43,163 bases of DNA from the NCBI GenBank assembly GCA_015067525.1, contig SVMH01000014.1, positions 1 through 43,163 of the forward strand, read 5' to 3'. Source of the stretch: Oscillospiraceae bacterium (lineage in GTDB: Bacteria; Bacillota; Clostridia; Oscillospirales; Oscillospiraceae). The notes under the pieces were generated by a model, which saw only the letters and a list, made by a program, of their open reading frames with translations, did not search any database and had not been told where the DNA came from. Below, one piece after another: positions 19,362-31,763 of the stretch (its first letter is position 1; each line of letters opens with the position of its first letter). The position numbers and the translations under genes were made by a program.

Positions 19362-19415
19362 TGGCGCAGCGGGTGGGATTTACCCTGCGGGCATAAACTT
19401 CGAATCCCCCGATAG
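19362..19415 (-). repeat. tRNA 3'-end repeat element, short copy (after tRNA-Ser CGA)
   Basis: In the tRNA sense (minus) the unit starts with CGGGGGATTCGAAG (an antisense T-arm sequence), has an imperfect hairpin TTTATGCCC-GCA-GGGTAAA, and ends in AATCCCACCCGCTGCGCCA, an exact 19-nt copy of the 3' end of the adjacent tRNA-Ser including CCA (identical at 19362-19380 and 19451-19469). The ends can pair (GGGATT/AATCCC). It lacks the two large conserved hairpins of the copies at 20262 and 31501. Confidence 0.7.
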
Positions 19416-19450
19416 AAAAAGAGAGACGCCACAAGGCGTCTCTCTTTTTC
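19415..19450 (-). terminator. Terminator after tRNA-Ser(CGA)
   Basis: Stem AAAAAGAGAGACGCC / GGCGTCTCTCTTTTT with an ACAA loop, directly after the tRNA CCA end on the minus strand. Confidence 0.9.
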
Positions 19451-19537
19451 TGGCGCAGCGGGTGGGATTCGAACCCACGTGGATTGCTCCAAACTGATTT
19501 CGAGTCAGCCCCGTTATGACCACTTCGATACCGCTGC
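19451..19537 (-). tRNA. tRNA-Ser (anticodon CGA)
   Basis: 87 nt with an encoded CCA. The acceptor stem pairs GCAGCGG with CCGCTGC. The anticodon arm CTGAC-TCGAAAT-CAG places CGA in the loop (reads UCG codons). A long variable arm and the T-arm GTGGGTTCGAATCCCAC are present. Confidence 0.95.
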
Positions 19538-19561
19538 GTATGTGAACTTTTCAGCTTGCCT

Positions 19562-19590
19562 ATCATACCACACTTTTTTCTGCCGTGCAA
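19562..19590 (-). promoter_or_regulatory. Promoter for tRNA-Ser(CGA)
   Basis: Minus strand: TTGCAC, 17 nt, TATGAT, about 25 nt upstream of the tRNA. Confidence 0.7.
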
Positions 19591-19632
19591 CGCAAAAGAC
19601 AAAAAATCTTTGGCCGGAAAATGATTTTCTTC

Positions 19633-19662
19633 TTGACATAGGCTGTCCTCTTATGCTATCAT
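19633..19662 (+). promoter_or_regulatory. Promoter for the Gly-Arg-His-Gln-Lys tRNA operon
   Basis: TTGACA, 18 nt, TATCAT with an extended TG, about 32 nt before tRNA-Gly. No separate promoter is seen before the Arg, His, Gln or Lys genes. Confidence 0.7.
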
Positions 19663-19693
19663 GACAAAGCTGACGATTTCACGGAGGGCGCAT

Positions 19694-19768
19694 GCGGGTG
19701 TAGCACAATGGCCAGGGCACCAGCCTTCCAAGCTGGGGATGCGGGTTCGATTCCCGTCACCCGCTCCA
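19694..19768 (+). tRNA. tRNA-Gly (anticodon TCC)
   Basis: 75 nt including CCA. Acceptor GCGGGTG/CACCCGC; anticodon arm CAGCC-TTCCAAG-CTG gives TCC (GGA codons); T-arm GCGGGTTCGATTCCCGT. First gene of the rightward tRNA operon. Confidence 0.95.
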
Positions 19769-19781
19769 CTGTTTCACTTAT

Positions 19782-19858
19782 GCGCCAGTAGCTCAGCTGG
19801 ATAGAGCAACTGCCTTCTAAGCAGTAGGCCAGGGGTTCGAGTCCCTTCTGGCGTGCCA
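19782..19858 (+). tRNA. tRNA-Arg (anticodon TCT)
   Basis: 77 nt including CCA. Acceptor GCGCCAG/CTGGCGT; anticodon loop CTTCTAA gives TCT (AGA codons); T-arm AGGGGTTCGAGTCCCTT. Confidence 0.95.
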
Positions 19859-19913
19859 CTTTTTCTCTGGAGCATCGAAATCGAAATGCAGATTCCCGTG
19901 CGGATGCATATGT

Positions 19914-19991
<78 letters not shown>

Positions 19992-20000
19992 CACAAAGAA

Positions 20001-20038
20001 CAGGGATTGGGAGTGATCCCAATCCCTGCTTCTATTTT
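20001..20038 (+). terminator. Hairpin/terminator between tRNA-His and tRNA-Gln
   Basis: Perfect 12-bp stem CAGGGATTGGGA / TCCCAATCCCTG with a GTGA loop, then CTTCTATTTTT. As no promoter follows, tRNA-Gln and tRNA-Lys are probably made by read-through or by processing. Confidence 0.8.
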
Positions 20039-20045
20039 TCCACAC

Positions 20046-20120
20046 AGGGGTGTCGCCAAGTGGTAAGGCAAGGGACTTTGACTCCCTCATCCGCTGGTTC
20101 GAGTCCAGCCATCCCTGCCA
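20046..20120 (+). tRNA. tRNA-Gln (anticodon TTG)
   Basis: 75 nt including CCA. Acceptor AGGGGTG/CATCCCT; anticodon loop CTTTGAC gives TTG (CAA codons); T-arm GCTGGTTCGAGTCCAGC. Confidence 0.94.
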
Positions 20121-20154
20121 GATAACAACGGATGGCAACATCCTTTTTATATTT

Positions 20155-20230
20155 GCTTCGTTAGCTCAGTCGGCAGAGCACCTGCCTTTTAAGCAGGGTG
20201 TCCGGGGTTCGAATCCCCGACGAGGCACCA
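20155..20230 (+). tRNA. tRNA-Lys (anticodon TTT)
   Basis: 76 nt including CCA. Acceptor GCTTCGT/ACGAGGC; anticodon loop CTTTTAA gives TTT (AAA codons); T-arm CGGGGTTCGAATCCCCG. Its last 13 nt and the following terminator are duplicated 166 bp downstream. Confidence 0.95.
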
Positions 20231-20260
20231 AAAAAACCAGCCCAAAGGGCTGGTTTTTTT
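20231..20260 (+). terminator. Terminator after tRNA-Lys (first copy)
   Basis: Stem ACCAGCCC / GGGCTGGT with an AAA loop between an A-tract and T7. It belongs to a 44-bp perfect direct repeat (20218-20261 and 20384-20427). Confidence 0.92.
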
Positions 20261-20261
20261 G

Positions 20262-20396
20262 CATGCCGAGGAGGGGATTCGAAGTAAGATCGTGATATGC
20301 CGGCGGCATATCACGCCGCCAGCGCGAACGTTGGCGGCAACGTTGATTTTCGCCCTTTGGGGCGAAAAAGCAGCCGAATATCTCGACGAGGCACCA
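20262..20396 (+). repeat. tRNA 3'-end repeat element, copy after tRNA-Lys
   Basis: Reading in the tRNA sense: GAGGGGATTCGAAG (antisense T-arm), hairpin CGTGATATGCC-GGC-GGCATATCACG (20291-20315), hairpin CCGCCAGCG-CGAA-CGTTGGCGG (20316-20337), hairpin TTTTCGCCC-TTTG-GGGCGAAAA (20347-20368), then CCGAATATCT and a copy of the tRNA-Lys 3' end CGACGAGGCACCA. Both strands of the last two hairpins recur almost unchanged in the element at 31501-31630. The element plus its terminator copy is bounded by a 44-bp perfect direct repeat. Confidence 0.8.
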
Positions 20397-20427
20397 AAAA
20401 AACCAGCCCAAAGGGCTGGTTTTTTTG
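20397..20427 (+). terminator. Second copy of the tRNA-Lys terminator
   Basis: Identical stem ACCAGCCC / GGGCTGGT with T7, the downstream arm of the 44-bp direct repeat. Confidence 0.9.
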
Positions 20428-20432
20428 TATTT

Positions 20433-20609
20433 TTACGATTCTTCTTTATCTTTTGCGGTATGCCGGCCCTCAAACGAAAGCACCTTCACTTCCGGTTCGG
20501 CTGACTGCAGATACATCTCCTCGCACGCCTGCTGGGCGGCGATCAGGTGCGAAATGGCGTCTTCGGTGGCGCGAAACAGCGCAAAATACATTTCTTTATA
20601 GTCCGGCAT
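20433..20609 (-). CDS. Small hypothetical protein (58 aa)
   Basis: Reading begins MPDYKEMYFALFRATEDAIS on the minus strand and ends ...RHTAKDKEES with a stop at 20433. The composition (aromatic N-terminus, mid-protein Ala/Gln/Glu helix with IAAQQACEEMYLQ, charged tail) looks like a real helical protein. GAAAGAGGACA lies before the ATG, and a good promoter (TTGACT, 17 nt, TATAAT) lies upstream. It is divergent from the small XRE regulator and may be its target. Function unknown; similar short proteins are, to my recollection, common in clostridial genomes. It ends 6 nt from the duplicated tRNA-Lys terminator. Confidence 0.7.
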   Translation of the reverse strand: MPDYKEMYFALFRATEDAISHLIAAQQACEEMYLQSAEPEVKVLSFEGRHTAKDKEES

Positions 20610-20630
20610 CCCGATGTCCTCTTTCGATAT

Positions 20631-20686
20631 GGGGATTATATCCCCTTAATGGAAAAGATTATAACCCCCATAATGAGGAAAGTCAA
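20631..20686. promoter_or_regulatory. Divergent promoter region with GGGGRTTATA half-sites
   Basis: The minus-strand promoter is TTGACT (20681-20686), 17 nt, TATAAT (20658-20663). The perfect palindrome GGGGATTATATCCCC is at 20631-20645, and a third half-site, GGGGGTTATAAT on the minus strand, covers the -10 at 20658-20669. The three related half-sites between the 58-aa gene and the XRE gene look like operators. Confidence 0.6.
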
Positions 20687-20703
20687 TGAAAAGGGGGCTG
20701 CGT

Positions 20704-31464: not shown

Positions 31465-31503
31465 AAAAAAGAGGACGCACCTTTTCGGTGTGTCCTCTTT
31501 TTT
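31465..31503. terminator. Terminator after the TauE/SafE gene
   Basis: Stem AAAAAAGAGGACGCACC / GGTGTGTCCTCTTTTTT (one wobble) with a 5-nt loop. Its T-run abuts the tRNA-end copy of the next repeat element. Confidence 0.92.
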
Positions 31504-31630
31504 GGCGCAGAAGGAGGGATTTGTCTGCATTTTCGCCCATCGGGCGAAAATAGAGGAAACCGCCAACGTGCGCGCTGGCGGTGCAACAGCCCACCGGGCT
31601 GTTGCGACAGAAGTTCAAATCCCCCCAGAC
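31501..31630 (-). repeat. tRNA 3'-end repeat element, copy after tRNA-Ser(GCT)
   Basis: In the tRNA sense (minus): GGGGGGATTTGAACTTC (antisense T-arm), hairpin GCAACAGCCC-GGT-GGGCTGTTGC (31583-31605), hairpin CCGCCAGCG-CGCA-CGTTGGCGG (31560-31581), hairpin TTTTCGCCC-GAT-GGGCGAAAA (31530-31550), then CAAATCCCTCCTTCTGCGCC(A), a copy of the tRNA-Ser 3' end. A 23-bp direct repeat marks this (31501-31523 and 31668-31690). The ends pair nearly perfectly (GGGGGGATTTG with CAAATCCCTCC). The order and sequence of the two inner hairpins equal those of the copy at 20262-20396. Confidence 0.8.
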
Positions 31631-31631
31631 G

Positions 31632-31670
31632 AAAATAAAGGCACCAGCCATATGGCTGATGCCTTTATTT
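31632..31670 (-). terminator. Terminator after tRNA-Ser(GCT)
   Basis: 17-bp stem on the minus strand, arms AAATAAAGGCATCAGCC and GGCTGGTGCCTTTATTT, with an ATAT loop, directly after CCA and before the repeat element. Confidence 0.88.
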
Positions 31671-31763
31671 GGCGCAGAAGGAGGGATTTGAACCCTCGCG
31701 CGGGTTTTTAAGCCGCCTACTCCCTTAGCAGGGGAGCCCCTTCGGCCACTTGGGTACTTCTGC
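31670..31763 (-). tRNA. tRNA-Ser (anticodon GCT)
   Basis: 94 nt including CCA. Acceptor GCAGAAG/CTTCTGC; anticodon arm CTCCC-CTGCTAA-GGGAG gives GCT (AGC/AGU codons). Long class II variable arm; T-arm GAGGGTTCAAATCCCTC. Confidence 0.95.

Follow-up and report, generated by a model that had tools for sequence, protein, structure and literature searches.

Hairpin units behind tRNA genes with ends that match the local tRNA: a candidate non-autonomous DNA element of Oscillospiraceae-type gut bacteria

The window, i.e. the whole stretch of 43,163 nucleotides analyzed here from an Oscillospiraceae bacterium, contains a tRNA-Lys(TTT) gene followed by a direct repeat (exact over 44 nt and 98% identical over 47 nt), the copies of which lie at 20218-20261/64 and 20384-20427/30, 166 nt from start to start. 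The repeat comprises the last 13 nt of tRNA-Lys and a terminator-like hairpin, exactly as described in the first-pass annotation, and the antisense T-arm, three hairpins and T-arm remnant placed there between the copies have all been found. The three hairpins are strong as claimed, with stems of 10, 10 and about 9 bp in the fold instead of the 11, 9 and 9 bp originally given. The locus is composed of the following parts:

20155..20230, + strand: tRNA-Lys(TTT), source of the copied 3′ end (ARAGORN)
20229..20261, + strand: terminator-like hairpin T1, abutting the CCA end, identical in sequence to T2 (inverted repeat I3)
20263..20281, + strand: left arm, antisense to the tRNA-Lys 3′ end, made of ATGCC, a 5-nt internal loop GAGGA and GGGGATTCG (sequence, fold, family statistics)
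20273-20284: antisense T-arm piece GGGGATTCGAAG, between the 44-bp copies
20292..20314, + strand: hairpin HP1 with a conserved CCGGYGG loop region (fold; covariation, helix 2)
20315..20338, + strand: hairpin HP2 (fold; covariation, helix 3)
20347..20368, + strand: hairpin HP3, then a GCA linker (fold; covariation, helix 4)
20375-20383: T-arm remains, between the 44-bp copies
20375..20396, + strand: right arm, sense tRNA-Lys 3′ end from C56 to CCA, with a diverged T-stem part
20395..20427, + strand: terminator-like hairpin T2, in the second copy of the 44-bp repeat (inverted repeat I4)

In the predicted fold of the window copy the two T-arm pieces form a stem of their own, which encloses the three hairpins in a multibranch structure. 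The RNA fold of 20259-20431 reached -91.9 kcal/mol (z -9.8, equalled by none of 200 shuffles), and a z of -7.1 was obtained when the window copy was folded without the terminator. The T stem of the right arm reads CGAATATCT against CGAATCCC in the tRNA, and because of this divergence only the acceptor part belongs to the exact repeat. When the region 19400-20700 was compared with Rfam, tRNA alone reached the gathering score. An assembly artefact in a draft genome, the weak point foreseen for the 44-bp repeat, is unlikely as its source, since a single base next to the terminator distinguishes the copies (GCAT/GTAT) and since loci of other genomes (L158, L075, L099 and L131) show the same arrangement of repeated terminators.

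The first further copies were supplied by searching the genome of the window (G000, a draft in 87 contigs), where one of the additional copies lies in the window behind tRNA-Ser(GCT), and congeneric genomes. Covariance model R1 was built from six aligned copies, in which compensatory changes affect 14 of the 41 predicted pairs. It matched 13 of 32 genus genomes and 27 of 200 family genomes at E <= 0.01, and 6 of 32 and 19 of 200, respectively, at E <= 1e-6 (G000 counted in), with up to 14 matches within one genome. Such a search of Oscillospiraceae had been proposed in the first-pass annotation, on the view that hairpins confined to one genome and lacking a link to tRNA genes elsewhere would speak against its reading; they are neither. 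At the order level R1 found 12 of 295 genomes (E <= 0.001), and at the class level model R2 found 2 of 341 (E <= 1e-4), in both cases with stricter filters and G000 counted in; the three-hairpin body type is therefore mainly a family-level feature, and its wide spread beyond the family was rejected. A 23-nt string led to named hosts, which are Oscillospiraceae MAGs recovered from the rectum of water deer and the cecum of goats. When two hairpin strings were sought in a viral collection, exact matches came from 0 contigs for one and 1 contig for the other. A prophage-like viral contig (L184, IMGVR_UViG_3300033463_000621) carries at its end, positions 1-140, a terminator-like hairpin and a partial unit; a tRNA-3′-end-like stretch lies ahead of the hairpin, where ARAGORN detects no tRNA.

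Two further units have been recognized in the window itself:

31503..31635, - strand: second full unit, behind tRNA-Ser(GCT) at 31670-31763 (genome search, covariance model)
19362..19411, - strand: third unit, behind tRNA-Ser(CGA) at 19451-19537 and of a mini form with a single hairpin (boundaries by eye), with the antisense arm at 19401-19411, the hairpin at 19381-19393 and the sense 3′ end at 19362-19380, all on the - strand

The right arm of the second unit (31503-31523) is an exact copy of the last 21 nt of tRNA-Ser(GCT). With units behind tRNA-Lys, tRNA-Ser(GCT) and tRNA-Ser(CGA), three of the nine tRNAs of the window are known to be unit-bearing.

The models yielded 90 matches, of which 80 were tabled; those dropped were echoes on the reverse strand (three), matches truncated by a contig end (two) and weak or partial matches (five). 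Orientation was counted on either side of each unit up to 1 kb. A tRNA or tmRNA gene was present within this distance for 55 of the 80 units, and 53 of the 55 lie downstream of it on the same strand, so that the predicted position behind tRNA genes was borne out and the predicted common orientation held with the exception of two inverted units, both at L080 behind tRNA-Gly(CCC). This inverted array (L080, 842-1254), in which a partial unit accompanies two full ones, is the sole case among the 80; it seems from it that either orientation can be tolerated, as would be expected of a DNA-level process in which the arms are symmetric. First units are mostly found 30-47 bp past the tRNA. No recognized tRNA lies within 1 kb on either side of 25 units, and 29 units have none within 400 bp upstream; 12 of the latter carry a right-end copy of 18-21/21 positions 34-44 bp upstream and 17 do not, and several other units without an upstream tRNA are at contig ends. 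Among nine order-level loci with weaker matches (L180, L136, L137, L139-L142, L145 and L148), eight have a tRNA or tmRNA ahead on the same strand at 12-47 bp and L141 has none. At L141, from another family of the order, positions 1400-1760 hold a hairpin with a CCCGGTGGG loop and no tRNA was detected. Altogether 14 tRNA isotypes and tmRNA are targeted (13 isotypes and tmRNA in the 80-unit table, Phe added).

The plan of the family leads from a tRNA or tmRNA gene, usually through a terminator-like hairpin, to the left arm, the hairpin body and the right arm, and often on to a further hairpin of this kind or a further unit; the right arm of full copies ends in CCA. Units of about 95-175 bp (166 bp in the window) are commonly organized in tandem arrays with periods near 170, 147, 117 or 95-100 bp, whose near-identical members include the terminator and whose last units may be partial. 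The arms are decayed in many copies, and at tRNA-Lys of congeneric genomes the one-hairpin mini form is encountered. In alignment A3, which holds 64 units fitted to the model and is hence biased towards it, all 41 modelled pairs vary on both sides, 95.1% of the paired cells can pair against 70.0% after shuffling, and pairing falls to 33-47% when the partner is slid by 1 to 3 columns. The body is most constant in the loop region of the first hairpin (CCGGTGG), and the fold z ranges from -7.1 to -10.9 across the folded copies. G-U pairs make up 2.5-3.2% in the units, against 6.3% in the acceptor stem, 10.9% in the T stem and 10.6% in the folded tRNA, a scarcity that taken by itself would point to palindromes kept at the DNA level; however, they are equally rare in tRNA anticodon stems (2.9%) and T1 hairpins (2.1%), and the ratio of G-U pairs to mismatches varies by method, so that the scarcity does not prove such palindromes. 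A similar stretch (beginning CGTCGGAAGAAGGCTG / CGTCAGAAGAAGCCTG) directly follows the right arm in L079, L083, L086 and L116, spanning genomes G248, G189 and G226, as if a second repeat family attached to the end of the element. The congeneric loci L019, L020 and L021 share TGATACA in the loop of a downstream hairpin with otherwise different stems.

The agreement of the ends with the local tRNA was evaluated for the 51 of 80 units with a tRNA up to 400 bp upstream, against 1000 shuffled tRNA assignments. The right arm matched its own tRNA at 18.3 of 21 positions on average (shuffled mean 12.3, maximum 13.3 in 1000) and the left arm matched the antisense T arm at 10.2 of 11 (shuffled 7.7, maximum 8.2); in the unit of L113 (11/21) and the second unit of L104 (9/21) the right arm did no better than chance. 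The boundaries were analyzed in 50 units for the left arm, and right copies could be anchored in 45 of these. The right copy starts at C56, which is present in 39 of the 45 while T55 differs in 42, and it is exact through CCA (21 nt) in 20 anchored copies and shorter in the rest. The left arm corresponds to the reverse complement of the tRNA 3′ stretch from C56. In 48 of 50 units the antisense T arm gives it the better fit, and in the other 2 the sense T arm fits equally well; on these counts duplication of a whole tRNA was rejected as the origin of the left arm. An exact reverse complement of the last 6 nt of the tRNA occurs in 16 of 47 left arms (0 of 1391 in the other-tRNA control). In those 16 the left arm spans 26 nt (11 cases), 25 nt (3) or 23 nt (2) and never 21, and so exceeds the right arm by 2-5 nt where its acceptor part is recognizable (16/47). 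The extra nucleotides are located, as judged by eye, at the acceptor/T-stem junction, and simple copying does not account for them.

The body is shared by units behind different tRNAs. In genome G307 the units behind tRNA-Lys (L150) and tRNA-Ser(GCT) (L187) have a 62-nt body without a single difference, and both arms differ between the two loci, each matching its own tRNA; near copies of the body stand behind tRNA-Arg, tRNA-Gln and tRNA-Phe of this genome, the Arg, Gln and Lys units sharing one tRNA cluster. Like bodies with different ends have been noted in other genomes at lower identity, and for 48 of the 80 units the nearest relative of the body is found in the same genome at a different locus. 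A similar body combined with an unlike right end was counted in 54 of 3160 pairs, an upper bound as it includes some pairs in which both units belong to one tRNA type and a right end is truncated; the 41 cases scored as having a different T-arm are likewise an upper bound due to register shifts in a few rows, and G307 provides the clean case. Since identical bodies leave little time for the arms to be refitted by mutation and selection, both arms would most simply have been copied from the target during insertion. The proposal of the first-pass annotation that this is a mobile or copied unit using tRNA 3′ ends is thus well supported by the position, the matching ends and the body shared across tRNAs.

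Comparison of orthologous tRNA-Lys sites, also suggested there, revealed sites with and without a unit among 21 loci of the genus. Exact copies of the 3′ end are present at four (G031, G028, G001 and G015), and the same site is occupied by the diverged copy in the window and by a degenerate unit in G003; the remaining loci showed no 3′-end copy by an exact-type test, which misses diverged copies. At L160, again a tRNA-Lys site, a left-arm-like stretch and a hairpin are kept. The body types at orthologous tRNA-Lys genes vary by genome and comprise the full and mini forms and two more in L164 and L172.

The interpretation which we favor, with moderate confidence, is that the element is a non-autonomous, hairpin-structured DNA that spreads from one tRNA or tmRNA gene to another in gut bacteria of the Oscillospiraceae type, with both ends copied from the target. 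Insertion would join the body to the target at the T loop; new DNA synthesis would copy the target 3′ end directly into the right arm, and a second copy, made by strand switching or fold-back, would give the left arm. With the target 3′ end copied twice, the tRNA would be left whole and both ends would be rebuilt at each insertion. The kept hairpins and the additional 2-5 nt in the closing stem might be recognized by a recombinase or by stalled replication machinery, so the process could depend either on a trans-acting recombinase recognizing the folded strand or on template switches made by the replication machinery of the host at TTCGAA, the palindrome of the T loop. The recombinase accounts better for the extra nucleotides and the kept hairpins, and template switching for the absence of an enzyme; template switching alone leaves the extra nucleotides of the left arm unexplained. 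A bolder version, which we put forward tentatively as an outside possibility, sees an enzyme-less selfish hairpin DNA, spread when polymerases switch templates at the conserved T loop, with its ends rebuilt for each target, the tyrT/RtT repeats of Escherichia coli being its fixed instance outside Clostridia. The evidence on mobility is static and comes from mostly draft genomes, and gene conversion among existing copies, by homogenizing the bodies, could mimic recent spread.

No mobilizing gene tracks the element among the two families tried, Y1 transposase and reverse transcriptase. These were sought in 12 element-bearing genomes and 12 comparison genomes, the latter all without a model match at E <= 0.001 with stricter filters, so that weak units or units of other types may occur in them. 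A resident Y1 transposase (PF01797) is encoded by 7 of the 24, i.e. by 3 of 12 element-bearing (G031, G115 and G222) and 4 of 12 comparison genomes (G119, G074, G076 and G408), and was found in none of the element-bearing G000, G248, G157, G189, G145, G187, G226, G024 and G192. A resident reverse transcriptase (PF00078) is encoded by 10 of the 24, 2 of 12 element-bearing (G024 and G226) and 8 of 12 comparison genomes; at E <= 1e-8 none was detected in 10 of the 12 element-bearing genomes, including G000, G248, G157, G115, G189, G145 and G187. Both candidates were rejected.

The folds are also open to an explanation at the RNA level, possible in our judgement though doubtful, in which read-through from the tRNA yields a tRNA mimic whose arms are kept complementary by selection. 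It would form an acceptor/T-arm minihelix with a CCA end and a short bulge in place of the D and anticodon domains, and the roles envisaged for it are in tRNA processing, termination or quality control. The fold z of -7.1 to -10.9 in the folded copies and the covariation of 41 of 41 pairs suit a selected RNA equally well, as covariation cannot separate RNA from folded DNA; the extra nucleotides placed by eye at the acceptor/T-stem junction of the left arm, the annotation of E. coli RtT as an RNA and the units behind tmRNA, which itself has a T arm and CCA, also speak for it. The covarying structure is likewise compatible with the second proposal of the first-pass annotation, an RNA that tRNA-processing enzymes would mature. 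Such a function is harder to reconcile with the patchy distribution (27 of 200 family genomes, and differing states at one orthologous tRNA), with arms that are decayed in many copies, with a left-arm acceptor part recognizable in 16 of 47 only, with the terminator-like hairpin that usually separates the tRNA from the unit and with the L080 units inverted relative to their tRNA.

Two further explanations dispense with a spreading element. Palindromic terminators and T arms might simply be hot spots of slippage, inverted duplication and gene conversion, with ancestral bodies homogenized in place; the arrays of near-identical units including the terminator, the partial last units, the hairpins all along the units and the failure of both enzyme families to track the element agree with this. 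We consider it improbable nonetheless, because a 62-nt body is identical behind different tRNAs inside differing ends, the copies start specifically at C56, the surplus length of the left arm over the right one is nearly constant in the units that allow it to be measured, and orthologous sites without the unit exist. Least probable is that the units are remnant attachment sites of islands or prophages which target tRNAs by tyrosine integrases. The duplicated tRNA 3′ end would be expected of them, and islands may share some of the tRNAs, as indicated by a tRNA-Leu 3′ half at L079/L086 and the prophage-like contig L184; an antisense copy, a conserved covarying body and the repetition of units some 95-175 bp in length are established as foreign to attachment sites, and as many as 14 tRNA isotypes and tmRNA are targeted. 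As an observation by eye, the tRNA-Leu-3′-half-like stretches of L079 and L086 stand isolated upstream of the units, as would be seen at the distal boundary of an island that had integrated at the anticodon loop.

In the mobile elements known so far the ends belong to the element itself, and the target is duplicated only as a by-product of insertion. To our knowledge no known kind of element rebuilds both ends from each target, and for this reason the element described here is counted as a new kind; it may instead fall under the tyrT repeats if these are taken as the kind. If the favored interpretation were confirmed, the element would represent a new mode of DNA spread in which the middle travels while both ends come from each target and the essential tRNA and tmRNA genes are kept intact. 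It may also account for small spurious ORFs annotated behind tRNAs of gut Oscillospiraceae.

Several known systems share single traits with the family. REP/REPIN sequences, associated with Y1/RAYT, are short, non-autonomous and palindromic and occur many times per genome. The family resembles them in being short, palindromic and multi-copy, but no Y1_Tnp match was found in the unit-richest genomes G248, G157 and G189, and we know of no tie of REPs to tRNA genes. Retroelements of the SINE-like type possess tRNA-derived 3′ ends of the CCA type, a trait in common with the family, whereas no reverse-transcriptase match at E <= 1e-8 was obtained in 10 of 12 element-bearing genomes. The attC sites of integrons are folded single-strand sites with bulges, and the cassettes form tandem arrays of small units as seen here; the ends of attC are conserved and are not known to copy a target, whereas those of our units match it. 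Casposons, according to passages of one report, insert at tRNA 3′ ends with duplication of the target, a process akin to the insertion of CRISPR spacers (PMC6977970). They encode Cas1, their terminal inverted repeats are fixed and their duplications measure 14-15 bp. The present units likewise duplicate the tRNA 3′ end, but they are only about 95-175 bp long, repeat about 21 nt or more, from C56 in the right arm, and have inverted ends that vary with the target; the 166-bp unit of the window is too short to encode a Cas1-type integrase. In two structured-RNA surveys examined for tRNA-linked motifs, the passages of PMC8040213 described none of like kind and PMC2864571 gave no occurrence, and no description of the element was found in Rfam or in the searchable literature outside subscription papers and preprints. 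Over all scanned sequences only tRNA, tmRNA and, in E. coli, RtT reached the Rfam gathering level, and no family covers the unit.

The closest parallel is offered by the tyrT repeats of E. coli, which have been known since the 1970s with a role that is unclear, their RtT RNA being released as RNA from the tRNA transcript. The first-pass annotation knew of no named element with the plan of the window unit; these repeats (RtT RNA, RF00391; rttR, tpr) have it, consisting like our family of tandem units in which the tRNA 3′ end is paired with an antisense arm. The final 19 nt of tRNA-Tyr are reproduced exactly at the end of each of the three 178-bp units of tyrT, and every unit has a GGGGAAGGAT stretch that is predicted to pair with this end around internal hairpins (a comparison with shuffles, made for one unit, gave z -2.7). 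In E. coli K-12 tyrT no obvious terminator is seen by eye between the tRNA and the unit, whereas the window family usually has one. An RtT-repeat match was present in 4692 of 5426 E. coli genomes, the 30 records listed being all annotated as RtT sRNA. Passages of the RtT literature deal with a tandem GA motif (PMC7657543) and with a variable tandem repeat in Salmonella (PMC2658671). The Rfam model of RtT gave 4 matches in E. coli L135, used as the positive control, and 0 in eight element loci (L150, L020, L075, L086, L131, L168, L142 and L136); RtT was not listed at E <= 5 in 19400-20700 of the window nor at E <= 1 in L172/L164. The fourth match in K-12 (L135, 1464-1595) lies across tyrV from the three-unit array. 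At L172, on the reverse strand behind tRNA-Lys of G003, the junctions GGGGATGAGAA...GAGAATCCCC resemble GGATGAGAAG...GAGTAATCC of E. coli RtT, and the RtT model is unmatched there. Judged by sequence, the window element follows the RtT plan with a body that is unrelated by this model, and membership in the RtT family is not supported. The Oscillospiraceae units allow the tyrT/RtT repeats of E. coli to be viewed comparatively, across numerous sites and species and against orthologous sites that lack a unit, which makes mobility, RNA function and hot-spot slippage testable.
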